Positions 7,239-20,199 of a stretch of DNA of 64,000 bases are shown here, in pieces. Source of the DNA: Anaerolineaceae bacterium oral taxon 439 (GTDB lineage: Bacteria > Chloroflexota > Anaerolineae > Anaerolineales > Anaerolineaceae); assembly GCA_001717545.1 (NCBI GenBank), contig CP017039.1:744001-808000 (forward strand), read 5' to 3'. The stretch's first letter is position 1; each line of letters opens with the position of its first letter. A program made the translations under genes and the position numbers. The notes beneath the pieces are model-generated. The model did no database searches and was not told where the DNA came from. It saw nothing but the letters and a program-made list of their open reading frames with translations.

Positions 7239-7547
7239 ATGGACCTTCAGCGCACGCGATTGGCGATCGACCGGATCGATCGTGAAATGGTCGGGTTGAT
7301 GTGCGAGCGGATGCGGCTTGCGGCGGAGATTGCCGCCTATAAACGGGAAAATGGCCTTCCGGTCGGCGATCCGGCGCGGGAGCGGGAAATTCTGGAGCGC
7401 GCCGCCGCGCAAGCCGGGCCGGAGCTGGCGCGGTATATCGAGGCTTTTTACGCGGCGGTTTTTGAAATCAGCAAGGGCTATCAGACGGAGCTGATCGCCG
7501 CGGCTCCGCCGCTCAGCGGCCCGGAAAAGGGCGCATGTACGGATTAA
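7239..7547 (+). CDS. Chorismate mutase, AroQ class
   Basis: A short, free-standing chorismate mutase of 102 residues that rearranges chorismate to prephenate, feeding TyrA encoded earlier in the operon. The all-helical AroQ fold is recognisable from IDRIDREMVGLMCERMRLAAEIAAYKR-type spacing: an Arg-x3-Asp helix, Arg in MRLA, the Lys of AAYKRENG, and the Asp-x3-Arg-Glu pair in DPAREREIL. It lies six bases after aroC and overlaps the aroE-aroK fusion by 13 bases. Ribosome binding site AGAGGAAA precedes ATG 7239. Confidence 0.88.
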   Translation: MDLQRTRLAIDRIDREMVGLMCERMRLAAEIAAYKRENGLPVGDPAREREILERAAAQAGPELARYIEAFYAAVFEISKGYQTELIAAAPPLSGPEKGACTD

Positions 7548-8776
7548 TCGGGCGCCGGCTGGGGCATAGCTATTCCGCACCGATCCATCGCGCGCTGACG
7601 AACGGCGCGTACGATTACCGGCTGATCGAGGTCGAGCCCGACGCGTTAGCGGATTTCCTCAGGTCGCGGGAATTCGACGGCCTGAACGTGACGATCCCGT
7701 ATAAGCGGGCGGTGATCCCGTTTCTTGACGCGCTGACTCCGGACGCGGAACGGATCGGCGCGGTGAACACGATTTTCCGCCGCGGCGACCGCTGGATCGG
7801 CGATAATACCGATGCCGCCGGGCTGCGGTACGCGTTGGAGCGGATCGGTTTGGATCCGGGCGGGAGACGCTGCGTTATTTCAGGGAACGGCGGGACGTCG
7901 CGGACGGCGGCTGTGGTCCTGAGCGAGCTGGGCGCGGCGTCGGTTCGGCTTGTCTCCCGGCGGGAGGGGACCCCGTTTGAACGGGCGGGGACGCTTGATG
8001 ATACCGAGCTGATCGTCAACGCTACGCCGCTCGGCATGTCGCCGGAAACGGACGGCGATCCGCTCGATCTGACGCTGTTTCCGAAGCTGATCGGCGTATT
8101 CGACGCGATTTATAATCCGCTTTCGACCCGCTTTTTGCAGCGGGCGCAGCGGCTGGGCCTGATCCAGGGCTGCGGGCTGCGCATGCTCGTCGCGCAGGCG
8201 AAGGCGGCGGCGGAACGGTTCCTGGACGCTCGGTTGGATGACGGGGCGATCGAGCGCGTTTATCGGGAGCTGCGCGCCGGGACGGAGAACCTGATTCTGG
8301 TTGGAATGCCCGGGGCGGGGAAGACCGCGGTCGGACGCGCTCTGTCGGCGCTGTCGGGGAAGCCGTTCGTCGATCTGGACGCGGTTTTTGTCGAGCGCGC
8401 CGGGATGCCGATCCCGGAGTATTTCGCGCGTTTCGGCGAAGCCGCTTTTCGTCAGGTTGAAGCTGAGCTCTGCGCGGAGGTTGGGCGGAAGACCGGTCAG
8501 GTCGTCGCGACCGGCGGCGGCGTCGTTCTTCGCGAGGAGAACCGGATTCATTTGCGGCTGAATGGGTATGTCGTTTTTTTGGAACGCGAGCTTTCGAAGC
8601 TTCCGACCTCGGGACGTCCAGTGTCGCAGGCGGCCCCGTCGCTGCGGGCGTTATACGAAGAGCGGCTGCCGGCGTATCGCGCCTGCGCCGATGTCAGCGT
8701 CGTGAACGATGGATCAAAGGCGTCCGTCGCGGCGCGGATTCTTGAACTTTATCGGGAAAGGCTGGGAACGCTATGA
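7535..8776 (+). CDS. Shikimate dehydrogenase / shikimate kinase fusion
   Basis: A 413-residue bifunctional protein. Residues 1 to about 245 are an AroE-type shikimate dehydrogenase: GRRLGHSYSAPIHRAL (shikimate binding), GLNVTIPYKR, the catalytic Lys within it, NTDAAG and the NADP-binding SGNGGTSRTA. Residues from about 250 are an AroK-type kinase: Walker A GMPGAGKTAVGRAL, DLDAVF, FRQVEAEL and TGGGVVLR. The order places reduction of 3-dehydroshikimate directly before phosphorylation of shikimate, two consecutive steps. Fusion of these two is uncommon; other bacteria fuse aroK with aroB. No stop or frameshift separates the domains. The gene starts within the chorismate mutase end and overlaps aroQ by four bases. 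Confidence 0.92.
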   Translation: MYGLIGRRLGHSYSAPIHRALTNGAYDYRLIEVEPDALADFLRSREFDGLNVTIPYKRAVIPFLDALTPDAERIGAVNTIFRRGDRWIGDNTDAAGLRYALERIGLDPGGRRCVISGNGGTSRTAAVVLSELGAASVRLVSRREGTPFERAGTLDDTELIVNATPLGMSPETDGDPLDLTLFPKLIGVFDAIYNPLSTRFLQRAQRLGLIQGCGLRMLVAQAKAAAERFLDARLDDGAIERVYRELRAGTENLILVGMPGAGKTAVGRALSALSGKPFVDLDAVFVERAGMPIPEYFARFGEAAFRQVEAELCAEVGRKTGQVVATGGGVVLREENRIHLRLNGYVVFLERELSKLPTSGRPVSQAAPSLRALYEERLPAYRACADVSVVNDGSKASVAARILELYRERLGTL

Positions 8777-9260: not shown

Positions 9261-10310
9261 TTATCCGTTCCTGCCGCTGACGTTCGCGGATTCGAACGTC
9301 GCCATGTCGCGCAGCACGTTCAGCGCCGCGTCGATCAGCGCGAACGACAGCGCCGCGCCGGTGCCTTCGCCGACGCGCATCTTCAGGTTTAACAGCGGCT
9401 GCCGCTCCAGCAGGGTGAGCAGCGCGGCATGGCCGACTTCAACGGATTGGTGCCCCGCGATCAGGTAGTCGCGAACGCCTGGGTTGATTTCGGCGGCGAG
9501 CGCGGCCGCGACGGTTGAGATCAGTCCGTCCATGACGAGCGGGACGCGGTTAGCGGCGGCCGCCAGCGTTACGCCGGTCATCCCTGCGATTTCGAATCCG
9601 CCGATTTTCATCAGGATATCAAACGGGTCGTTCCGGTCGGGGCGATTCACGGCGAGCGCGCGTTCGACGACGGCGATTTTCCGCGCCAGTCCGGTTTCGT
9701 CGACGCCGGTCCCGCGTCCGGTGACTTCCGCGGCGGGTTTCCCGGTCAGGACCGCGGTAATCGCCGCTGAAGGGGTTGTATTCCCGATCCCCATTTCGCC
9801 GGTCGCGGCCAGCTGGACGCTGGAACGGAACGCTTCTTCGCCGATCTCATATCCGACGGTCAGCGCCTGATCGAGCTGCGCGGCGGTCATCGCCGGTCCG
9901 ATAGCAATATTCATCGTTCCGCGGGCGACTTTGCGGTGGGTAATGGGGAGCGACGGATCGAAGTCGTACGCGACGCCGATATCGGTAATCCGGACTTCGG
10001 CGCCGAGCTGCCGGGTCAGTACGTTAATCGCGGCTCCCTGGTTCAGGAAGTTCATGACCATTTGCGGCGTGACGGACTGCGGATAGGGGCTGACCCCCTC
10101 GGCGCAGACGCCATGGTCGGCGGCCATCAGGAAGACGGTTTTCCGTTTCAGGTCAGGGAGCGGGTCGCCGGTCATTCCGGCAATCTGAATGGAGAGCGTT
10201 TCGAGATCGCCCATGGATCCGAGCGGTTTAGTCAGGGTTTGCTGCCGCGCGGCGGCCTGATCGGCCGCTTTGCGGTTGAACGCGGGGATATGGACGTTTT
10301 TGAAATTCAT
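9261..10310 (-). CDS. cobT: Nicotinate-nucleotide--dimethylbenzimidazole phosphoribosyltransferase
   Basis: Activates the lower ligand of cobalamin by making alpha-ribazole phosphate. The 349-residue protein has the family motifs LTKPLGSMGDLE, MAADHGVCAEGVSPYPQSVT, GEMGIGNTTPSAAI, and the C-terminal MRVGEGTGAAL containing the catalytic glutamate. It starts at ATG 10310 with GGGAGATAGA upstream. It is the last gene on this strand after the LPNTG protein, 76 bases apart, and may be read from the same transcript. No other cobalamin gene and no cobalamin riboswitch is visible here, so it may serve salvage of corrinoids with ligand exchange. Confidence 0.94.
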   Translation of the reverse strand: MNFKNVHIPAFNRKAADQAAARQQTLTKPLGSMGDLETLSIQIAGMTGDPLPDLKRKTVFLMAADHGVCAEGVSPYPQSVTPQMVMNFLNQGAAINVLTRQLGAEVRITDIGVAYDFDPSLPITHRKVARGTMNIAIGPAMTAAQLDQALTVGYEIGEEAFRSSVQLAATGEMGIGNTTPSAAITAVLTGKPAAEVTGRGTGVDETGLARKIAVVERALAVNRPDRNDPFDILMKIGGFEIAGMTGVTLAAAANRVPLVMDGLISTVAAALAAEINPGVRDYLIAGHQSVEVGHAALLTLLERQPLLNLKMRVGEGTGAALSFALIDAALNVLRDMATFESANVSGRNG

Positions 10311-10386: not shown

Positions 10387-12141
10387 TTACTTCCGTTGGC
10401 GCCGCGTTCGTGCGGCGATCATGATCAGGAATAGCAGGAGCAGCAGCGCGCCCATCCGCCAGAGCTGGAAATCGTCGCCGATCCCGGTATTCGGAAGCGC
10501 GGTAGGGATCAGGTGCGCCTGATGATCCGGAAGCCCCGGATCATCCTCGCTGTCTCCGATCAGCGGCGCTTCGAACGTCGCGGTTGCGGCCTGAAGGGGC
10601 CGCTGCGTTGGGATTTGGGCGAGGGCCTTCGTTGCGGTCGCGCGGTTGAACGGGAGCGGGAGAATCGGGCGCGTCGGGACCGCCTGCGTCACGATCGGGA
10701 GACCGATCGACTGGGTCGCAGTGACGCTGAGCGGCGGGGCGGGCTGAATCGGCTGATTCCCTGCGGGGATCAGCGTCGGAGGGTTTGGGATTTCCGAGGT
10801 CACGAGGTAAAACGGTTCTTCGCCGTTTTCAGCGTACATCGGCTCGTCGTCTAAATCGCTCTTCGCCGTCGGCGCAGCGTTTTTCGCGTCCGCTTCTCCC
10901 TGAGACGGGAGCGGCAGGACGGCTTCCGGCGTCCGCGTTGGAAGCGGGGTTTCGGTGGGTGGGAAGAAGAAATTCGCGATAGACGCGAAAAAACCGCCGT
11001 TCGGTTCGGCCGTCGGAGAAACGGGAAGCCCGTCCGGGAACGCGTTTTCGGCGAGCGGGATCCCGTTTCCGTTCGCGCTCGTCGGAACGGAGACGGATGG
11101 CGTTTGAGTCGCTGGCGGGCCGGCGAAGAAGATACGGATCGATTCGAAAAAGCCGGGCGTGTCGGTCTCGGTCGGTTGGAGCGCTGGCACGTCCGGTTCT
11201 CCGCTCGTCATGAACGGATCGGACGCGGCGGTTGGAAAATCGGTATGGGCCGCGTCTATGAGCGGCGCGGCTGCCGTGGTTGGATCCTCCGCCTGCGTCG
11301 CGCTCGGACTTTCGGCGAGGCTGCCGGTCGGCGCGCTGAACTCGGCCGCCGCCTGAGCGGTCTGGCCGGCGGGCTCTTCGGACGGGATTTCGTCTGGATC
11401 CGTTTCGTCCAACGTCCCGTTGACGGTCTTGTTGCCTGAGAAAAAAGCGGCGATCCGTCCGAAGAAGCCGGGTTCCTCGGTCGCGGTCGGGACTGGGTGG
11501 GCTGCGCCGTCGGCCTTCGCCGCGTCGATGCGTTCCGGCGCGTCGGTCGCTTCGTCCGGAACCGGTTCGGATGGGAACGGTTCGGAAGGCAGCGTTTCGG
11601 AAGGGAGCGCGACGGTCGGATTCGCGATCGAGACAGGCCGCGCGGTTCCGTTCAGCGGGTTCGGGTTGGCGTTGACCGGCGCGTTGGTCGGAACGGCCGG
11701 GTCTCCGGCGAACTCGAGCTGGGTCGGAAGGAGCGGCCGAGTCCCCGCGGATTCGGTTCCGTCCGCCGGGGCTGCTTCGGTCTCGTCCGCTGCCGGTTGG
11801 GGCGTAGCGGTCGGATGCGCCGCGCGCAGGGCGGTAAAACGATCAAAAAACGACGGAAGCGCTGTCGCGGGGACGCTCGTGACCGTCGCTTCGGGCGCGG
11901 ATTCGGTTCCGTCGGCATCGAGTTCGCCAAATGGGGCGGCGTCGCTCGCGATCGGGACCGCGGACGTTTCTTCCGGCGTACGGATGTCCTGGCGCCGGGT
12001 CCCGAAATAAACCGCGGCGCAGCCGATCAGGACGACCGGAATGACCCACCATGGGAATCGGTTCCCGGGCCGTTTTTTATTTTCCTTTCGGTTAAACTCG
12101 TTTTCAAACGTTTCGAAAACCTCATTTTCGTCATAGCTCAT
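10387..12141 (-). CDS. Cell-surface protein with LPNTG-like C-terminus and FFxxIxxFF repeats
   Basis: A 584-residue low-complexity protein of unknown function. A basic, acidic-residue-rich start is followed by one membrane segment (about 28-45, WWVIPVVLIGCAAVYFG), then some 500 residues rich in Ala, Pro, Thr, Ser and Glu. Four short hydrophobic modules interrupt this: PSFFDRF (about 96), PGFFGRIAAFF (about 223), PGFFESIRIFF (about 328) and GGFFASIANFF (about 381). The C-terminus has LPNTG (549-553), a hydrophobic segment and a basic tail RTRRQRK, which is the layout of a sortase sorting signal. ATG 12141 has GGAGG eight bases upstream. Last-but-one gene of the DUF6754/MutL operon. No sortase gene is in the window. 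Confidence 0.75.
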   Translation of the reverse strand: MSYDENEVFETFENEFNRKENKKRPGNRFPWWVIPVVLIGCAAVYFGTRRQDIRTPEETSAVPIASDAAPFGELDADGTESAPEATVTSVPATALPSFFDRFTALRAAHPTATPQPAADETEAAPADGTESAGTRPLLPTQLEFAGDPAVPTNAPVNANPNPLNGTARPVSIANPTVALPSETLPSEPFPSEPVPDEATDAPERIDAAKADGAAHPVPTATEEPGFFGRIAAFFSGNKTVNGTLDETDPDEIPSEEPAGQTAQAAAEFSAPTGSLAESPSATQAEDPTTAAAPLIDAAHTDFPTAASDPFMTSGEPDVPALQPTETDTPGFFESIRIFFAGPPATQTPSVSVPTSANGNGIPLAENAFPDGLPVSPTAEPNGGFFASIANFFFPPTETPLPTRTPEAVLPLPSQGEADAKNAAPTAKSDLDDEPMYAENGEEPFYLVTSEIPNPPTLIPAGNQPIQPAPPLSVTATQSIGLPIVTQAVPTRPILPLPFNRATATKALAQIPTQRPLQAATATFEAPLIGDSEDDPGLPDHQAHLIPTALPNTGIGDDFQLWRMGALLLLLFLIMIAARTRRQRK

Positions 12142-12162
12142 GGTAATCCTCCGGTTTGCGCC

Positions 12163-13230
12163 TTATCGCTCGGAATCGTCGAGGCGAACGCGCTCAACGT
12201 TATGAATCGGCAGCGCCAATTCGGTATCCTGGTCCAATCGGACGCGGACCTGCTCAAATTCGGCGTTCTGCGCGTCAGGATTGACCAGCTCGCTGATCAC
12301 GCCGATTTCGCCGCCGTAAAAACCGTCGATAATCCGGACCGTGTCCCCGATTTCGAGCGGCTCGACGGGGCTGCTTTTCTGCGGTGTGTATTCGTCTTTG
12401 GGGATGACGATTTCCGGTTTGCGCGGATTTCCGTAACGGCTCGACAGTCCGGTCAGATAGGCGAACCTGATAATATTTTTCCCCAGCGCCAGCTGCGCCG
12501 GCGTCGCCATCCGGCCGCTGCCGATTCGATCGGTCAGGATGACCGGGATCGGCAGCGATTCCGCAATCGGGAGAAGATCGGCGGGGAGCGACCCGAGGAT
12601 CAGTCCGCCCATCGATACCTTGACCGCGCGCTGGAGCGCCTTGGGGTCATGACAGGTATTCGCGAATACGACCGCGCCGGCGAAATCGAGCGTAATCGAT
12701 TCGTTCGTGAGCGTTCCTTCTTCGCGATTGAAATCAACCGACATCAGGATACCCTGACCAAATTTCCCGTTCCCCCAGACGCCGCGGACGAGCGTCCCCT
12801 CCGTTTCGAGGCGGGCTCCGCGGTATGGGAGGATTTCGGTTACGATCCCGGGAAATCCGGCGACGCAGCGTTCCCGGTCGCGCGGAACGAATTCGAAGAT
12901 CAGCTTGTTCGCTGAAAGGCCGAGGAATCGGCCCGACTTTTTCGCCAGAACGGTCCGCGTTTTACGTCCTTCGCGTTGGGCGACCGTGTCGCCGATGGAA
13001 ACGAAGTCGCCGTCCTTAATCGTCAGGCAGGGACGAATGGGTTCGCCCGGGCTGAGTCCCAGCGCGTCGGAAAGCGAAAGCGCTTCATGCCGCGTCCAGA
13101 CTTTCCGGTATGCGATAACGGTCGACGGATCGGTCGCCTGGCCCGGGTAGGCGACGACGGTCCCGTTTTCGGAAAGCGCGCGCGCCGTCCGGATCGTTCC
13201 CTGATGAATCGCGTCGCTTACGTTAGCCAT
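12163..13230 (-). CDS. KOW-domain protein of the MutL/DUF6754 operon, function unknown
   Basis: A 355-residue soluble protein without signal peptide or membrane segment. The N-terminal half has several short glycine turns reminiscent of carrier-type beta barrels (KDGDFVSIGDTVAQREG, about residues 70-87). The C-terminal 60 residues contain a KOW-like fold: LEIGDTVRIIDGFYGGEIGVI. KOW domains usually bind RNA or protein in the transcription/translation apparatus, but nothing here fixes the role. Its start codon lies eight bases inside the end of the MutL-like gene, implying coupled translation and equal amounts. It precedes the LPNTG protein by 21 bases. I do not recognise a characterised relative. 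Confidence 0.7.
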   Translation of the reverse strand: MANVSDAIHQGTIRTARALSENGTVVAYPGQATDPSTVIAYRKVWTRHEALSLSDALGLSPGEPIRPCLTIKDGDFVSIGDTVAQREGRKTRTVLAKKSGRFLGLSANKLIFEFVPRDRERCVAGFPGIVTEILPYRGARLETEGTLVRGVWGNGKFGQGILMSVDFNREEGTLTNESITLDFAGAVVFANTCHDPKALQRAVKVSMGGLILGSLPADLLPIAESLPIPVILTDRIGSGRMATPAQLALGKNIIRFAYLTGLSSRYGNPRKPEIVIPKDEYTPQKSSPVEPLEIGDTVRIIDGFYGGEIGVISELVNPDAQNAEFEQVRVRLDQDTELALPIHNVERVRLDDSER

Positions 13231-15055
13231 CCAGTCTTCCTCCTTCGCCGATACGCCAGTCGCCGAGCTGTTTCTTTTCCAGTCGGAGGCGTTCGATTTC
13301 CGCCGCGCGGTCGTCTTTTTTATCAGTTCCGCGCTCGCCGCGCAGGTCGAAAATCAGGCCGAAGCTCCCACTTTTGAAGCCGAACGGGAGAAACGGCTGA
13401 ATTCCCGGCGTGTCGACGCCGCGCGGAATCGAGAGCCATTCCAGCCGGTAGTTCTGACCGTAGTTCAGCGGGATCCGGTAGATTTCGCCAAACGGGATCA
13501 GGTACTCTTTTTTATCGCCGCCGGTGTTCTGGATACTGATCCGCATGGGAGCGGCGTTCTTCCGCGTCCAAAGCGAACGGTCGAGGACTCTCGGGCGGAT
13601 GACCTTTCCCAGGTTCAGGTAGGTTGAGCTGTCCATGATATCCGCGGCGAGCTTCGGGTTGACATGCATGACGGTTCCGATCACGGCGGCGAGCCCGTTC
13701 ATGTCGAGCAGGTAATCGATCGCGCCGTACGGACGAATCGCGTTCATCGCCGCCCGCAGCGACGCGCCCGGATCTTCAACGTTCCGCAGCCCTGATCCGG
13801 TCAGCAGGACGGCCGATAACCGGCCGGACGGCGGGAGCGAGAGGAAGCCGGAACGGAAAAGCGCGATTCGGATCAGCTCCTCCTTCAGCGCGATCTCGAT
13901 CTCAGCGGCGTAGCGGTTCGCTGGGACGAGCTCGGGATAGAGCGATTTATTCAGGATATAATCGCGAATTTCGCCGGTTCTGATCTGGAAATCGATATGG
14001 GCCCGGATCGATTCGGCGTCGGTTTCCGAAAGAATTCCGGGAAGCGTTTTCCCCAGTCCGATCGGAACGGTTTTCAGCTTCAGCCTCAGGTCCATCGCCT
14101 GGGCGATCAGCGTCCGGTCGGCGCCGATATTGACGCCCAGAACGACCTGATGTTTCCGGATCAGGCGCGACAGGAGGCGGACGGAACGCCCGAACGCGAA
14201 TTCGCCGGGAATGAACGAGGCGTTCGTCTGTTTTCGGAGCGTCTCGAATCCCGGGGCGCGGAGCGAAGCGTCCTTCCGGATCGTTTTCAGCAGGCAGTTC
14301 AGCGCGGGTTCGTCGCCGGGCTCGGTTTCCATGACGTTCGAGCCGAACGCGATATCGGAGATTTTCGCGAAGACGCGTTCGATTTCGACGCGCGTTTCGC
14401 TGTTTCCCAGGAAGAGGAGCAACGGCCGCTGTTCCCTGGTCAGGCTTTTACAGTACAGGAGGATCGTTTCGCCGATCCGATAGACGGCCCGACGCGCGCC
14501 GTTTTCGGTCCCGCCCGCGAAGACGATGATCCGCGGAGCGGCGGCGGTCAGGCGATCGAGCTGCTTCGCGGTCGAATATCCGTCGTCCAGCGCGCATTCG
14601 AGGATCGGGGTCGTTCCGAGCCGTGCGCAAAGCGAACGCAGCGCCGGGAGGCTCCCCGCCTCGCTCAGTCCGAAAATCGCGATCGCGGGATCGGCGATAC
14701 AGGTATAAGAGGCGGCCGCCTGGTCGATCCCGCTGAAATCCGTCGCCATCGGCAGGATAAAATTCCCATCCGCGTCGAGGATTCTCTTTTTGACGTTTTT
14801 TTCGAGCTTTCGGACCGCGGCGGCGATCCCGACGAATTCGGAACGCTCGTGGTTCAGGTGCGTCGTTCGATCCGAGGCGGACCCGATAAAACGGTATTTC
14901 CCGGCACGAATCTCGAATAAGCAGGCGCGCGTATTGACCGTTCCGATGTCGATCGTCAGGACCGATTGCGGCAATGCGTTTGCAGCCGCCGTTTCGGGGT
15001 TTTCGACCGATTCCGGCGGTTGCTTCAGGACTCCGGGGCTCATGACGCGCTTCAT
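13223..15055 (-). CDS. GlmL/MutL-like protein (actin-fold ATPase family)
   Basis: A 610-residue protein. The first 450 residues resemble the glutamate mutase accessory family (GlmL/MutL): an ASKHA-type phosphate loop SVLTIDIGTVNTRACLFE near residue 31-48, a second one VVLGVNIGADRTLIAQ about residue 300, and a glycine-rich VLLTGSGLRNVEDP motif typical of the adenosine site. The last 150 residues form an additional beta-rich region (IPFGEIYRIPLNYGQNYRLEW) and a charged tail. No glutamate mutase subunits are present, so the name describes fold, not function. Start chosen at ATG 15055, in the ATGA overlap with the preceding membrane protein; the frame is open further upstream only as an artefact. 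It sits in the middle of a membrane protein operon. Confidence 0.8.
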   Translation of the reverse strand: MKRVMSPGVLKQPPESVENPETAAANALPQSVLTIDIGTVNTRACLFEIRAGKYRFIGSASDRTTHLNHERSEFVGIAAAVRKLEKNVKKRILDADGNFILPMATDFSGIDQAAASYTCIADPAIAIFGLSEAGSLPALRSLCARLGTTPILECALDDGYSTAKQLDRLTAAAPRIIVFAGGTENGARRAVYRIGETILLYCKSLTREQRPLLLFLGNSETRVEIERVFAKISDIAFGSNVMETEPGDEPALNCLLKTIRKDASLRAPGFETLRKQTNASFIPGEFAFGRSVRLLSRLIRKHQVVLGVNIGADRTLIAQAMDLRLKLKTVPIGLGKTLPGILSETDAESIRAHIDFQIRTGEIRDYILNKSLYPELVPANRYAAEIEIALKEELIRIALFRSGFLSLPPSGRLSAVLLTGSGLRNVEDPGASLRAAMNAIRPYGAIDYLLDMNGLAAVIGTVMHVNPKLAADIMDSSTYLNLGKVIRPRVLDRSLWTRKNAAPMRISIQNTGGDKKEYLIPFGEIYRIPLNYGQNYRLEWLSIPRGVDTPGIQPFLPFGFKSGSFGLIFDLRGERGTDKKDDRAAEIERLRLEKKQLGDWRIGEGGRLDG

Positions 15056-15780
15056 GGCAGCAGGCCTCCCAGGATCGTTCGTCCCTCGCTCAGGAGCAGG
15101 TCCAGCCGATCGATCAGAACGATCGCCGACGAGATAAAAACGCCGGCGAAAATCGCGCCGAAAGCGGCCGCGACGAAAATTTCGCCGATCCGCTCCAGTG
15201 CAAAAAGCAGCTTGCCGCCGAAAGGTTTCCCTTTCAGGTTCGAAAAGACGCCTGGCGCGTCGCTGCGTTCCGACGCGACTTCCCGCGACCAGATCAGCGC
15301 GGTTATGACGCCAGCGAACGCGGCGATCGCTTCCGCCCATTGAACGCCGTTCCCGGCGGCGCTCGGCCCGCTCTTCGCGAACGGCGCGATCGTCGCCCCG
15401 AGAAGCGGAAGGAGCGTCCCGCTTATGGCGCCGGCTGACGCGACCGCGGTCAGCGCGAAAAAGCCGATTGTCAGCCATGGCGGATTCGCCGGCGCGTTCC
15501 TGTCGCGGTAGTGGGTAAAAATCAGGATCAGGATAAGCCCAACGCAGATTACGCTGACGATTCGCAGCTCAGGCTCAGCCCGATCGTCCAGCAGCGGCAG
15601 GATCAGGTACGGCGAGAAGACTTTTTCAATCAGGATCAGGATCAGCCCTGCCGCGATCGCGCCGCTTAAGATCGAACCGGCGAAGCGGAAAAGTCCGTTG
15701 TCGCCGAAGATCAGGCTGAAAATCAGGATCGACAGGATAAAACCGGCCAGGGTCATTATCCATTCCGCGGAGATCATCAT
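15052..15780 (-). CDS. Polytopic membrane protein of the MutL/DUF6754 operon
   Basis: A 242-residue hydrophobic protein with about six predicted membrane segments, beginning ISAEWIMTLAGFILSILIF and including AGLILILIEKVF, VICVGLILILIF, WLTIGFFALTAVASAGAIS, AIAAFAGVITALIW and GAIFAGVFISSAIVLI. No family motif was recognised. A loop between the last two segments carries charged residues and probably faces the cytoplasm. The start is taken at ATG 15780, which overlaps the stop of the zinc-ribbon gene (ATGATGA) and follows GGAGG; an in-frame extension up to 15948 would add only Arg/Pro-rich shadow sequence. It overlaps the MutL-like gene by four bases, so physical interaction with that cytoplasmic ATPase-fold protein is a reasonable guess. 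Confidence 0.75.
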   Translation of the reverse strand: MMISAEWIMTLAGFILSILIFSLIFGDNGLFRFAGSILSGAIAAGLILILIEKVFSPYLILPLLDDRAEPELRIVSVICVGLILILIFTHYRDRNAPANPPWLTIGFFALTAVASAGAISGTLLPLLGATIAPFAKSGPSAAGNGVQWAEAIAAFAGVITALIWSREVASERSDAPGVFSNLKGKPFGGKLLFALERIGEIFVAAAFGAIFAGVFISSAIVLIDRLDLLLSEGRTILGGLLP

Positions 15781-18395
15781 TCGGCTCGATCCTCCTTCGA
15801 TGGATTGGGTTTCTCGTCCGCCGTGTCGGAAAGGGCGTCGCCAGGCAGGTTCCGTTCGTCGGAATCGACGGTAATCGCGGAGGTCAACGGGATGCGGGCG
15901 GCGGAACCGATGAGGATTGCGCTCAGCGCCAACGCGATCAGGAACCACAACGCTGTCAGGCGCGCCGCGTTCGGATCCAGTTCGCCGCGGTAGGCGGCTT
16001 TCTCTTCCGGCGTCAGGAGCGACGCGGTCAGGACGCCGGCGCGTTGGAAGGGCCGCAGGATCGGCGCGGCCTGAGCCGAGCCGACGACGAGCAGTTTCGT
16101 TTCGGGTCGAAAGATACGGAATGCCTCGATCCAGCGCTGCGCGCGGGCCGCGTCCGCGACGATCAGGATGGCACCGGTCGCCGCGCCCTGACCCAAGTAG
16201 TCGCCGGAAGTCAGCGTCATCGCGCCGAGCGCCGCCGGGACGTACGAAACCGGAAGCGCGACGCCGTCGTCTGAATTCATGAAGAACGAGCGCGCGATCA
16301 GATACGCCGAATCGTTCGCGGCGATTAACGTTGGAAAAGTGTCTTTTCCGGTCAGCTCGTTGATGATCGACTGCGTTGTTGCGTTCAGCTCCGCCTCGTC
16401 GGCGAATCCGTAATCCAGGATGATTTCAAGGCGGCTCCCCGCGGGAAACGCGTTGAGCGCGTCATGAAAAGCGGCGCCGGCGGCGGCCCGTTCCGGCCGA
16501 ATCGCCGGGAGTTCGATTTTCCCGCCGGAAACCCCGGATAAGATCAGCAGGACCCCGGCGATCGCGATCAGCGCGAACAGAACCATTGCCAGTCGGTTTT
16601 TCGTTCGGATCCGCGGACTGACGAACCCGCGGGTCCGCCGCTCTGAGTAAAAAACTTTTTGCAGGATAGACGCGACCATACGCTGCTGATAATCGGAGGG
16701 AACGGCGGTCGATTTGGGGACGCTCGACGCGAACGAAACGCCGACCACGCCCGGAACCGTCGGAAATTTCATGTCGCCGGTTTCAAAGAGGTTCCAGGGG
16801 ATTTCTTCGCGGCTGTCGTTCGCCGGCGGCATGGGGATAAACGAATCGGGTTCATCCGGCGTTCTTCCGGGCGAAGTCAGCGGTTCCGGCGAACTGACGC
16901 GGTTTTCGTTTTCGATTTCAGCGCCGCGTTCAACGAGAACGCCCGGGCTCAGCGATTCGGCGTCGTTCAGGCTTGTCGAATCCGACGACCAGCTTTCCGC
17001 GATCGAATCGTAGACGGTCGGAGTGTTGTCGTCCGTGTCCGCCGCCGTTTCATGGAAAACGGCTGAAAACGGCGCGGCCGGTTCGACGGGACCGTCGTCT
17101 GGTGAGGACGCCGGCTCGTCCGCTTTGTCGGAGAATCCTGGTGTTTCGGTCGTTTTTTCGCCCGTCAGGCTGTCCAGGAAATCGTTGACGAGCGACGGCC
17201 CGTCGGAAGCGGCCGCCGGCTGCGCTGGACTCATCATCGGATCGCTTTCCGTTTCGGCTTTCGCCGAAACCGCCGGTTCGGGTTCGAGTTTGTCTTGCGG
17301 ACGGTGGACGCTGAAATCGACAAATTCGCGTTCCTCGCCGCGCGCTTCCGCGGCGTCCCCGGCGCTTTCTCCGCTTCCATTTTGGAGCTCGCTCTGACCG
17401 TCAAGAAGCTTGGCTTCGCTTTTCGTCCCGGCTCCGGGATCGGCGTCGTCCCATTTCCGCTGAGGCCGGTAGCGGGAAAAGTCTTCGTAGTCCGCTTCCG
17501 GCGCGGCCGGATCCGGAGGCTGCGCTTTCGGCGCGGGCGTTCGATCGTTTCCCGCCGCGTGCGCCGGATTGAAGCGCGATTCGGAAACGGGTTTCAGCTT
17601 CCATTCCGGCTTTTTAGCCGGAGCGGAAGCGCTCGCTGACGGATTCGCGGACGCGTCGTCCCATTTCCGCTGCGGACGGTGAAGCGTGAAATCCGCGTAG
17701 TCGTCTTCGGACGACGCCGTTTTTCCGTCCAGCCGGACTTCCGCCTTGATTGTCTCGGACTTCGTTTCAGGTGTCGGATCGTCCTCCGGAAGATCTTCGC
17801 TCTTGCCGGCGGCTCCGTCAGGCCCGGACGTCTGGCCCGGCGGCGAAGGGATCGGCGTGTCGTCCCATTTCTGCTGCGGGCGATGCGTTTCGAAGGTCCC
17901 GAATTCGTCTTCGGTTTCGAGTTCGGCGATTTTCCGGTCCTCTTCTTCGATGTCTTCCGGGGAGGCGGCCGCGATTGGCGCCGCGTCCGGCGCGTCGGCG
18001 TCCTGAGGCGCGGCGGTTTTCTCGTCAGACGCGCTCGGCGCATGAATCGGACGGTTGAACGGCTGGTTGATCGTTTCCTTGATTTCCGGGAAGAGTTCGC
18101 CGAGGAGATCCGGCGCAGCCTCGCCGGAATCGCTCGCGGGAAGCTCCTGCACGGACGTTTCGCCGTCCGGTTCGGCTTCGGATTCAACGCCGGCGTAAAA
18201 TTTTTTAAGCCAGTCAGGCGGCGAGCTCGCCGCTGACGACGAGGCCGGGACAGCGGAAGCGGCGGCAGGTTCCGAGCCGTTTCCGGTCGGGCGGAGGTCT
18301 TCGGGGAGCGTCTCAAAATTCGCGCCGCAGGTGGAACAGCGCTGCGCGCCGGGATCGTTCGTGCCACCGCAGACGCGGCAAATTAGTTTCATCAT
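15777..18395 (-). CDS. Zinc-ribbon membrane protein with RPQxKWDD repeats
   Basis: An 872-residue protein of unknown function. Residues 1-27 form a zinc ribbon (CRVCGGT..CSTCGANF). About 570 acidic, Ala/Pro/Ser-rich residues follow, predicted disordered, which carry four copies of a motif: FETHRPQQKWDD (about 168), FTLHRPQRKWDD (about 235), FSRYRPQRKWDD (about 305) and a degenerate FSVHRPQDKLEP (about 360). A membrane segment (LAMVLFALIAIAGVLLIL, about 605-625), an alpha/beta domain of about 180 residues, a second membrane segment (LTALWFLIALALSAILIG) and a short tail complete it. The disordered region is predicted cytoplasmic and could serve as a multivalent docking platform. Four-base overlaps with both neighbours. 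Confidence 0.78.
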   Translation of the reverse strand: MMKLICRVCGGTNDPGAQRCSTCGANFETLPEDLRPTGNGSEPAAASAVPASSSAASSPPDWLKKFYAGVESEAEPDGETSVQELPASDSGEAAPDLLGELFPEIKETINQPFNRPIHAPSASDEKTAAPQDADAPDAAPIAAASPEDIEEEDRKIAELETEDEFGTFETHRPQQKWDDTPIPSPPGQTSGPDGAAGKSEDLPEDDPTPETKSETIKAEVRLDGKTASSEDDYADFTLHRPQRKWDDASANPSASASAPAKKPEWKLKPVSESRFNPAHAAGNDRTPAPKAQPPDPAAPEADYEDFSRYRPQRKWDDADPGAGTKSEAKLLDGQSELQNGSGESAGDAAEARGEEREFVDFSVHRPQDKLEPEPAVSAKAETESDPMMSPAQPAAASDGPSLVNDFLDSLTGEKTTETPGFSDKADEPASSPDDGPVEPAAPFSAVFHETAADTDDNTPTVYDSIAESWSSDSTSLNDAESLSPGVLVERGAEIENENRVSSPEPLTSPGRTPDEPDSFIPMPPANDSREEIPWNLFETGDMKFPTVPGVVGVSFASSVPKSTAVPSDYQQRMVASILQKVFYSERRTRGFVSPRIRTKNRLAMVLFALIAIAGVLLILSGVSGGKIELPAIRPERAAAGAAFHDALNAFPAGSRLEIILDYGFADEAELNATTQSIINELTGKDTFPTLIAANDSAYLIARSFFMNSDDGVALPVSYVPAALGAMTLTSGDYLGQGAATGAILIVADAARAQRWIEAFRIFRPETKLLVVGSAQAAPILRPFQRAGVLTASLLTPEEKAAYRGELDPNAARLTALWFLIALALSAILIGSAARIPLTSAITVDSDERNLPGDALSDTADEKPNPSKEDRAE

Positions 18396-19039
18396 TCCCG
18401 TTCTCCGTATCGGCGGTTTTCCCCGGCCGGCGCGTTGGCGAAGAAGAGAACGCGGACTGAGCTGACGATCGCGCCGATCGCTAATCCGATCAGCAGCCCG
18501 GTAACTGCGCCGGTTGGCAGTGAGATCATGAACGACAGGGCTTTTTCGACCGGCTCCGGAAGCGCGAACCGGTCAAAGACGCCGCTGAAAAGGATCAGGA
18601 AGACGGCAGCGCTGATCAGGAACGTGGTTCGGAAGAGATTCGGCCTGGACTTCGCCGTGACGAAGAGGCCATAGATGAGCGACAGGCAGATCATTCCGGC
18701 GCAAACAGGTTCAATCGAGCGCCGGAGTGTCAGCAGGACTGACTGCAGGCCCGGATGATCGAACTGTTTTGTCAGCCCAATGATCAGGATGACAGTAAAA
18801 ACGGTCAGCGTCGTGAACCGGTGAAGGAAGTTGGCGTTGCGTTCGCCCAGTTCGCGGACCTGAAAGCGCAGGAAATCGAGAACGCGCAGGAAGGTTACGG
18901 CGGCGATCAGCAGCGTTACGCCGCGAAGGAAGAGCTGGCGCGCGGCGACGACTTCCGGCGCGGCCGCGTAAAACGACGCCAGCGTCAGCAATCCGGCAGC
19001 GCCGCAGAGAAGAAGGCCGAACGAAGCAATTCTTTTCAT
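18392..19039 (-). CDS. Polytopic membrane protein of the MutL/DUF6754 operon
   Basis: A 215-residue protein with about six membrane segments: ASFGLLLCGAAGLLTLASF, GVTLLIAAVTFLRVL, TTLTVFTVILIIGL, CAGMICLSLIYGLF, TTFLISAAVFLILF and GAVTGLLIGLAIGAIVSSV. No enzymatic motif was found. The arrangement and size resemble the 242-residue membrane protein encoded two genes downstream, but I see no clear sequence repeat between the two. It follows the DUF6754-like gene after four bases and overlaps the zinc-ribbon gene by four bases, so it is part of the same operon. Function unknown. Confidence 0.72.
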   Translation of the reverse strand: MKRIASFGLLLCGAAGLLTLASFYAAAPEVVAARQLFLRGVTLLIAAVTFLRVLDFLRFQVRELGERNANFLHRFTTLTVFTVILIIGLTKQFDHPGLQSVLLTLRRSIEPVCAGMICLSLIYGLFVTAKSRPNLFRTTFLISAAVFLILFSGVFDRFALPEPVEKALSFMISLPTGAVTGLLIGLAIGAIVSSVRVLFFANAPAGENRRYGERE

Positions 19040-19043
19040 GCGC

Positions 19044-19835
19044 TTATCCGAAGACCCGGAGAAAGACGACGCCGATGATCAGCGCGGCGATGACGATCCA
19101 GCGCATCGCGTCCATGACGATCAGCGTTCGCAGCGCGAACGGTCCCGCCGTCCGGTCAGCTTTCCGGACCAGCGCCGGCAGCGCGTAAACGCGTTCGCCG
19201 ATAAACGTTTCTTCCGCGGCGACGATGCCGGCTGCCTGCGCCTGAAGGTTGTCTCCGGCGATCAGGACGCTTTCATTCGCCGCGAACGAAAAATCCTGAA
19301 GCGCGATTTCCGCGCCGGCGCTCCCGACCGACAGGTGCATCGGTTCATGCGTTTCGTCGATCGCGGTCAGCGTCACGGCCTGATGGCTGATCGCGTCGTT
19401 CCCGGCGGTCCGGACAGTCGTCGGCTCATATTCGGCGTCTGATTCAACGGCCCGGTATCCGGAACGCACGGCGCGTTCCAACAGCGCGCCGCCGAAACCA
19501 TCGTCTGCGGTAAAGACCGGCGCGCTGTCGGCGGCGGCGACGCGGCGGGCGATTTGGTTCGCGCTTTCCAGCCCCGGAATCGCCGTCGCGGAGAACATTG
19601 TCGACGAACCGGAGCTCAGGTCAAAATGCGCTGCGTCGCCGCGTTCGAGCGATTCGGAAAGCGCGCCGGTCAGCGTTTTCCCGCATGCGCGCGCGGTAAA
19701 CGAAGAGCCGCGGCGGCGAAGTTTCGCGAGCGTAGAGGTAAACGTCAGCGCCCCGGTCAGCAAAGCAGCCGTAAGAATGATAATGATTGAAAGCGCCGAT
19801 AGTACCATGCGATTTTTAAGCTCCACAGGTTCCAA
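19044..19835 (-). CDS. DUF6754-like membrane protein
   Basis: First gene of the seven-gene unknown operon. The 263-residue protein has a membrane segment at each end (SIIIILTAALLTGALTF and WIVIAALIIGVVFLRVF) and an alpha/beta domain of about 170 residues between. Pattern elements such as HFDLSSGSS, PVFTADD, LLERAVRSGYRA and EETFIGERVYAL match what I remember of DUF6754, a Chloroflexota family of unknown function; this assignment is from memory. The start is uncertain: TTG 19835, GTG 19826 or ATG 19808 are in frame, and none has a perfect ribosome binding site. A TATAAT-like -10 element lies at 19856-19861 on this strand. Confidence 0.7.
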   Translation of the reverse strand: MEPVELKNRMVLSALSIIIILTAALLTGALTFTSTLAKLRRRGSSFTARACGKTLTGALSESLERGDAAHFDLSSGSSTMFSATAIPGLESANQIARRVAAADSAPVFTADDGFGGALLERAVRSGYRAVESDAEYEPTTVRTAGNDAISHQAVTLTAIDETHEPMHLSVGSAGAEIALQDFSFAANESVLIAGDNLQAQAAGIVAAEETFIGERVYALPALVRKADRTAGPFALRTLIVMDAMRWIVIAALIIGVVFLRVFG

Positions 19836-20112: not shown

Positions 20113-20118
20113 TTTTTG

Positions 20119-20199
20119 TGCCGAAGGTGGGAATCGAACCCACATACACAAGGTACACGATTTTGAGTCGTGCGCGTCTGCCAGTTCCGCCACTTCGGC
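20119..20199 (-). tRNA. tRNA-Leu (anticodon CAA)
   Basis: Folds as a class II tRNA of 81 bases: acceptor GCCGAAG/CUUCGGC with discriminator A, D arm, anticodon stem CACGA/UCGUG with loop CUCAAAA (anticodon CAA), long variable arm and T arm GUGGG-UUCGAUU-CCCAC. CCA is not encoded. It has its own promoter upstream (20211-20239). Confidence 0.96.

Follow-up and report, generated by a model that had tools for sequence, protein, structure and literature searches.

A conserved Chloroflexota gene set joining a GlmL-related actin-fold protein to membrane and surface proteins: a candidate envelope complex

What does a protein of a family named for glutamate mutase do in an operon of membrane proteins? 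The question is raised by seven genes, here called g1 to g7, on the minus strand at positions 10387-19835 of a 64,000-nucleotide stretch of DNA (the window; contig CP017039.1, positions 744,001 to 808,000), which sits inside the complete 2.95 Mb genome of Anaerolineaceae bacterium oral taxon 439, a member of the Chloroflexota. An earlier note on this DNA had proposed one complex spanning cytoplasm, membrane and surface, with the MutL-like actin-fold protein g5 as its motor or scaffold, and this interpretation is partly supported by the analysis reported here. The reading that we prefer, with a probability of about 0.42, is that the genes encode an envelope complex of Chloroflexota in which g5 organises the multivalent tail of the membrane-anchored protein g3, and the likeliest role of such a machine is envelope assembly or anchoring.

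All seven minus-strand open reading frames (ORFs) described earlier were found again (Table 1), two of them with shorter limits, since the 298-residue frame of g4 and the 751-residue frame of g5 are over-long and have refined starts at 15780 and 15055, the latter leaving 610 residues; for g1, the ATG at 19808, just ahead of the first transmembrane segment (TM), is judged from the sequence a more likely start than the TTG. The overlaps of 4 to 8 bases that had been ascribed to most junctions exist at four of the six (4 bases at g2/g3, g3/g4 and g4/g5, 8 bases at g5/g6), but the other two are short gaps of 4 bases (g1/g2) and 21 bases (g6/g7). Four membrane proteins had been counted, and g1, g2, g3 and g4 are predicted to be such, but g7 has two hydrophobic stretches, so that five of the seven proteins look membrane-bound; the predicted topology supports proteins on both membrane faces, and the LPNTG motif of the surface protein g7 is present. 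As for the family labels, a relative of g1 reaches DUF6754 at 1.2e-50, the best of four scanned relatives that match this family, but the window copies are weak or below cut-off, g1 scoring 23.6 bits against Pfam DUF6754 (PF20539; cut-off 27), and the zinc-ribbon match of g3 and the KOW match of g6 being weak.

The operon is real and strongly conserved, far beyond chance. Among 80 named Chloroflexota loci, a set made up of the top g5 matches and so weighted towards close relatives, mostly Anaerolineales, every locus with a long enough flank carries the expected neighbour (g4 76/76, g3 67/67, g2 62/62, g1 60/60, g6 74/74), and g1-g2-g3-g4-g5-g6 stand in window order in all 56 loci that could be tested for the whole series, so that the comparison of gene order in relatives, suggested with the earlier interpretation, came out in its favour. 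The cultured Bellilinea caldifistulae (L135) is among these 80 loci, and a g7-like ORF, recognised by a loose pattern, follows g6 in 65 of the 67 eligible ones. In a second set of 51 loci, made up of the window and 50 loci fetched from BLAST matches to g5, iterated profiles place g6 (49), g4 (42), g2 (36) and g1 (35) beside g5 in window order, with a g1 and a g2 added by hand where a g3 of 2262 residues intervenes; some of the missing genes are explained by contig ends, others are true absences. Within the class, BLAST matches to g5 occur in 90 of 150 genomes, four of them weak matches alone, of which three lie inside frames of about 1250 residues; 84 genomes carry both g5 and g6 and 63 carry neither, leaving as mismatches two genomes with g5 only (one at a contig edge) and one with g6 only (a fragment). 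The weak matches inside these long frames (G036:C55, G088:C200, G123:C82 and similar) concern g5 residues ~170-298. The distance matrices of g1, g2, g4, g5 and g6 correlate (r 0.58-0.84), as expected under shared inheritance, and genome comparison marks g1 to g6, with g7 in the relatives of the window, as an old and co-inherited gene set. Profile comparison of 10 pairs of operon families gave no convincing homology between them (best probability 5.8% over 24 columns).

A possible mechanism is offered by g3, whose low-complexity tail runs from the zinc ribbon to the TM and, by charge bias, is predicted to lie inside the cell, with the domain behind the TM outside. The signature P-x-W-L occurs 461 times in the 54 tails longer than 100 residues, against 9.0 copies expected by shuffling; it is found in 49 of these tails, with up to 62 copies per protein, and most commonly in the context [ED]-[VLI]-P-[DAE]-W-L-[RQ]-[ED]. 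This [DE][ILV]PxWL[RK]-like motif resembles the tail peptide of FtsZ, which in 30 relatives inspected by eye always reads [DEN]-[IVL]-P-x-F-[LIM]-R. A DNA pattern written for the strictest form of the motif matches 11 sites in 5 of 24 genomes, six of them in g3, compared with four sites for the backward control, and it misses many real copies, such as all eight PxWL of g3 in one genome (G025). In some lineages the motif stays next to g5 even where the membrane genes are absent: of 36 loci with g5 and no g4, 12 have at least two PxW[LMF] in an ORF just upstream of g5, and 10 have a zinc ribbon there (as many as three overlapping ORFs were viewed per locus, and the counts come without a chance rate). 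Three genomes (L276/L281, L279, L280) also have tails rich in PxWL, PxWM or PxWF in proteins that are encoded away from the operon and look TPR-like by eye, which suggests a wider motif system in these bacteria.

The best fold matches of the g5 model are FtsA (1e4g, Z 15.7, root-mean-square deviation (rmsd) 7.9 over 279 residues) and, tied with it, FtsA with an FtsZ peptide (4a2a, Z 15.4), followed at Z ~13-14 by acetone carboxylase, dehydratase activators and PilM. Together they extend over residues 27-469 and barely cover the C-terminal extension, which the earlier note had put at 150 residues; the extension is real, but with the Pfam MutL model ending at residue 476 of 610 it measures 134. 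It holds the most invariant residues of g5, among them G566, D570 and R572, identical in 51 of 51 homologues, and its search against solved structures returned weak matches only (2eis, E 0.013). Within the core, D36 (49/51) and T42 (50/51) belong to what we take to be the phosphate-1 motif and G420 (50/51) to the presumed adenosine motif. At the presumed phosphate-2 position 42 of 51 homologues have D, but the window copy has N; the N does not favour a strong ATPase motor, and a scaffold or switch fits better.

The likeness of PxWL to the FtsZ tail, taken together with that of g5 to FtsA, leads to the proposed mechanism. In it g5, with g6, would bind the PxWL motifs, in the way that FtsA engages the tail peptide of FtsZ, or PilM the N-terminus of PilN, and would thereby collect and order g3 under the membrane in a nucleotide-dependent manner; the membrane part formed by g1, g2, g3 and g4 would carry this order across the membrane to the LPxTG protein g7, which may link to outer layers. 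It is from gene order, motif and predicted topology that we infer binding and function within the complex, and g5 would act in it as a scaffold or switch rather than as a mutase reactivase. The repeated motif is a short peptide and hence a direct handle on the binding idea. A more far-reaching version must be called doubtful: in it an actin-fold protein akin to GlmL, bearing a new C-terminal domain, would read as many as 62 PxWL peptides arrayed on a membrane anchor and so organise the unusual, multilayered envelope of these bacteria. If true, it would be convergent with the reading of FtsZ tails by FtsA, with the peptide made multivalent on a membrane protein, and would be a case of a GlmL-type fold put to use in a membrane scaffold. 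The order conserved in 56 of 56 loci, the five predicted membrane proteins and the actin-fold protein together make the set a prime candidate for a core part of this envelope (on which see PMC13319060).

An N-terminal TM, a domain of ~190 residues and a C-terminal TM make up g1, and the excess of positive charges after TM1 over those before it (4.56 vs 0.68 in 34 homologues) leads to the prediction that the domain is cytoplasmic; no solved structure worth naming matches g1 (one at E 1.2). The best Pfam match of g2 has an E-value of 0.95, and a relative of g2 gave no match in NCBIfam. The C-terminus of g7, with LPxTG, a hydrophobic stretch and a basic tail, has the make-up of a sortase substrate, and its N-terminus reads as an acidic tail of ~28 residues followed by a hydrophobic stretch; the form [LIVMF]PxTG is found in 49 of 65 homologues. 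Sortases are present in 136 of the 150 class genomes, with seven matches in the genome of the window, and strong matches (E <= 1e-28) occur in 76 of 87 genomes with g5 or g6 vs 5 of 63 without, figures uncorrected for phylogeny. A link between g7 and sortases seems likely.

Several observations weigh against the envelope complex as proposed. Five of the 54 g3 tails are without PxWL, the g3 of the window has a single copy, with four RPQxK repeats in place of the array, and 24 of the 36 loci with g5 and no g4 show no PxWL-like array upstream; the arrays in proteins outside the operon mean that the motif may be read by something other than g5 or g6. The fold list of g5 is mixed, including acetone carboxylase (Z 14.0) and diol dehydratase reactivase (Z 12.7), and its Foldseek TM-scores are low (~0.3), so that fold alone picks no role. 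On the outer side, 16 of 65 g7 proteins are without the [LIVMF]PxTG form, three genomes of one family (f33) have strong sortases without g5 or g6, and 11 genomes with g5 or g6 have no or weak sortases. Finally, of 251 genomes of the phylum, 154 have a match to the g6 profile (a few of them weak) but only 61 have one to that of g1 (four weak), in a selection of 18 genomes with g5 or g6 there are 12 that contain no g1 at all, and 27 of 40 loci show g5-g6 only, some of them near contig ends; since the pair persists without the membrane genes, it must do something without that membrane part.

In a rival reading, g5-g6 would link gene expression to the membrane through binding of the KOW and barrel domains of g6 to ribosome or RNA polymerase, with g1-g4 as a site of membrane-protein assembly. 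We consider this unlikely. The model of g6 is divided into a barrel-sandwich-like domain with weak sequence matches to RnfC_N and NqrA, a swivel domain close to UPF0107 protein AF_0055 (Z 11.3, rmsd 2.4 over 112) and to the aconitase X chain 7cnr_D (Z 10.1), and a KOW domain with matches to NusG and Spt5. Its profile indeed matches the KOW regions of these two proteins (NusG 2xhc, E 1.5e-5), Foldseek ranks Thermotoga NusG first (E 2.3e-6, TM-score 0.15), and the KOW positions are conserved; however, the match is limited to the KOW part, KOW/SH3-like barrels have many roles, the same list contains an unrelated lysozyme chain at E 1.2e-6, and no ribosomal or RNA polymerase gene was noticed, mostly by eye, among the 40 recurrent neighbour clusters listed.

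There could also be two separate, often neighbouring machines, a membrane module of g1-g4 and a cytosolic one of g5-g6, an arrangement that ranks next and that we would not expect. Family f10 includes one genus in which two genomes indeed have the modules at different places (g1-g4 in L234 and L235, g5-g6 in L045 and L051), while a third f10 genome (L042) keeps all six genes together, and with the occurrence of g5-g6 without g1 in many lineages this makes one permanent complex no more than a possibility. Yet 60 of the 61 g1-bearing phylum genomes also match g6, and the remaining one (G018), on a contig that ends after g5, has g5 (compared by eye). Where g6 moves off, moreover, g5 stays with g1-g4: in families f57, f67 and f92, outside the class, g6 stands alone in six of six loci, and g5, present in all eight genomes searched, lies directly behind g1-g2-g3-g4 in six of six loci read. 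One locus of family f95 (L236) has g1-g2-g3 and g5 together, with g4 and g6 not found at that locus, and three f53 loci (L187, L188, L239) hold all six genes together. The lone g6 locus that was read in detail adjoins genes for a histidine kinase, a response regulator and ATP synthase; outside the class, response-regulator genes adjoin g6 in L182, L183, L185, L186, L210 and L211, ATP synthase genes then follow it in L183 (by Pfam) and, by clustering, in L182, L186 and L211, and they are also near g5-g6 in L198 and L212.

That g5 is a reactivase or chaperone of GlmL or EutJ type for another enzyme, with g6 as partner and the membrane genes as the enzyme or its anchor, is improbable. The membership of g5 in Pfam MutL is clear (86.5 bits, cut-off 27), the profile of g5 and the GlmL of this genome align across the ASKHA core at 126 bits, the alignment stopping at the end of GlmL, the fold list includes EutJ beside the diol dehydratase reactivase, and in the window a gene of the CobT family follows g7 at a distance of 76 bases. 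But g5 remains far below the cut-off of NCBIfam GlmL (28.6 against 475 bits; 14 against 204 for the subfamily model; 79.7 against 475 for its relative in L036), its most conserved part is the extension, CobT does not recur in the two comparison sets of 90 and 80 other loci, and a Pfam scan found no mutase or aminomutase family among the seven proteins. The true GlmL of the same genome (567.5 bits) is a different gene, beside methylaspartate mutase subunit E and methylaspartate ammonia-lyase, so that the earlier interpretation, which noted no mutase in the operon, stands on this point. Judged by its sequence, g5 is not a GlmL mutase reactivase, and mutase reactivation as its main job was rejected on the low GlmL score, the genome's own GlmL elsewhere and the extension that GlmL does not have.

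Least probable is that multicellular Chloroflexota have a further scaffold devoted to cell division or septal junctions, in parallel with FtsA-FtsZ. This is suggested by the resemblance of PxWL to the FtsZ tail and of g5 to FtsA and by the septal channels reported for some filamentous Chloroflexota (PMC7332563), but no division gene was noticed, mostly by eye, among the 40 neighbour clusters listed, and FtsA and FtsZ each exceed their cut-offs in 32 of 33 genomes with or without g5/g6 (six of the FtsA-bearing genomes are without them), which also led to the rejection of g5 as an FtsA replacement. Two FtsZ matches were seen in the genome of the window (G000:C1:2448064, G000:C1:704048), likewise in three others of its family and in some more distant ones.

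Table 1. Features of the operon in the window (aa, amino acids; pLDDT, predicted local distance difference test)
Feature	Position	Strand	Remarks
g1, DUF6754-family protein	19044..19835 (TTG start) or 19044..19808 (ATG)	-	refined coordinates
g2, polytopic membrane protein, no known family	18392..19039	-	no convincing Pfam match; syntenic homologues
g3, zinc-ribbon protein	15777..18395	-	ribbon and long low-complexity tail predicted cytoplasmic, TM, predicted extracytoplasmic domain, TM
g3 zinc ribbon, CRVCGGTNDPGAQRCSTC	18327..18380	-	
Single PDWL motif of g3	18207..18218	-	
Four RPQxK repeats in g3 tail, three of them RPQ[QR]KWDD	17262..17930 (approximate span)	-	
g3 C-terminal 290 residues used for family profile	15780..16649	-	TM, predicted extracytoplasmic domain, TM
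g4, polytopic membrane protein, no known family	15052..15780	-	start MMISAEW; homologue in 42/51 loci including the window
g5, actin-fold (ASKHA) MutL-like protein, 610 aa	13223..15055	-	Pfam MutL 86.5 bits; AlphaFold2 pLDDT 85.5; best structural matches FtsA
g5 phosphate-1 motif (presumed), DIGTVNT	14930..14950	-	D 49/51, G 48/51, T 50/51
g5 C-terminal extension	13226..13627	-	beta-rich; family motif GGxLGLIxDARGRPLxLP (RGER in window copy); absent from the genome's GlmL
g6	12163..13230	-	barrel-sandwich-like N-terminal domain, swivel domain, C-terminal KOW domain; AlphaFold2 pLDDT 89.2
g7	10387..12141	-	acidic N-tail, TM, Ser/Thr/Pro-rich region, LPxTG, C-terminal TM, basic tail
g7 LPNTG motif	10483..10497	-	

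Around the operon, a tRNA-Leu (CAA) gene lies directly upstream of g1 on the same strand (20118-20199, minus), and the CobT-family phosphoribosyltransferase (PF02277) is encoded downstream of g7, again on the same strand (9261-10310, minus); as an eighth operon gene it was rejected, being absent from all other loci compared. On the plus strand, 7535-8776 resembles by eye a shikimate dehydrogenase fused to a shikimate kinase. Terminator-like sites are no commoner than in shuffles (17 vs 17.5), and promoter-like sites number 4 vs 1.5, one of them directly upstream of the tRNA-Leu gene preceding g1; the argument makes no use of either. Among 91 loci, genes of the PspA/IM30 family recur in seven, in one directly after g6 (L073, 11968-12648), and HEAT-repeat genes in ten, in one directly before g1 (L063, 3408-4241).

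Among known systems, none that is characterised was seen to have this gene set, and GlmL, FtsA and PilM are each set apart from it by a defining test; in the open-licence PMC literature DUF6754 appears in 0 papers, and in that literature and in search listings no paper was recognised as describing this gene set. DUF6754 (PF20539) is the family of g1, yet the window copy falls below its cut-off, and Pfam gives no function for it. GlmL/MutL, the methylaspartate mutase accessory protein (PF13941, NF040745), shares a homologous ASKHA core with g5, but g5 differs from it in its score, the 134-residue extension, the linkage to membrane genes and an operon without a mutase family. With LPXTG sortase substrates g7 shares the whole C-terminal arrangement, but the motif is altered in a quarter of the homologues found and the N-terminus does not clearly read as a signal peptide. 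PilM-PilN of the type IV pilus alignment complex likewise has a cytosolic actin-fold protein encoded beside its membrane partners (PilM matches g5 at Z 13.4), but no PilN, PilO or PilP family of Pfam is among the seven proteins. FtsA is the best fold match to g5, and a D/E-aliphatic-P-x-aromatic-L-R/K/Q peptide is found in a partner gene; unlike FtsA, g5 is not matched by the FtsA model (TIGR01174), being absent from the four FtsA matches of the genome of the window (G000), FtsA and FtsZ are encoded elsewhere, and the motif lies here on the tail of a membrane protein, in up to 62 copies. Among these comparisons, the closest working analogy is most likely a cytosolic actin-fold scaffold in the style of FtsA or PilM, acting on a membrane complex.

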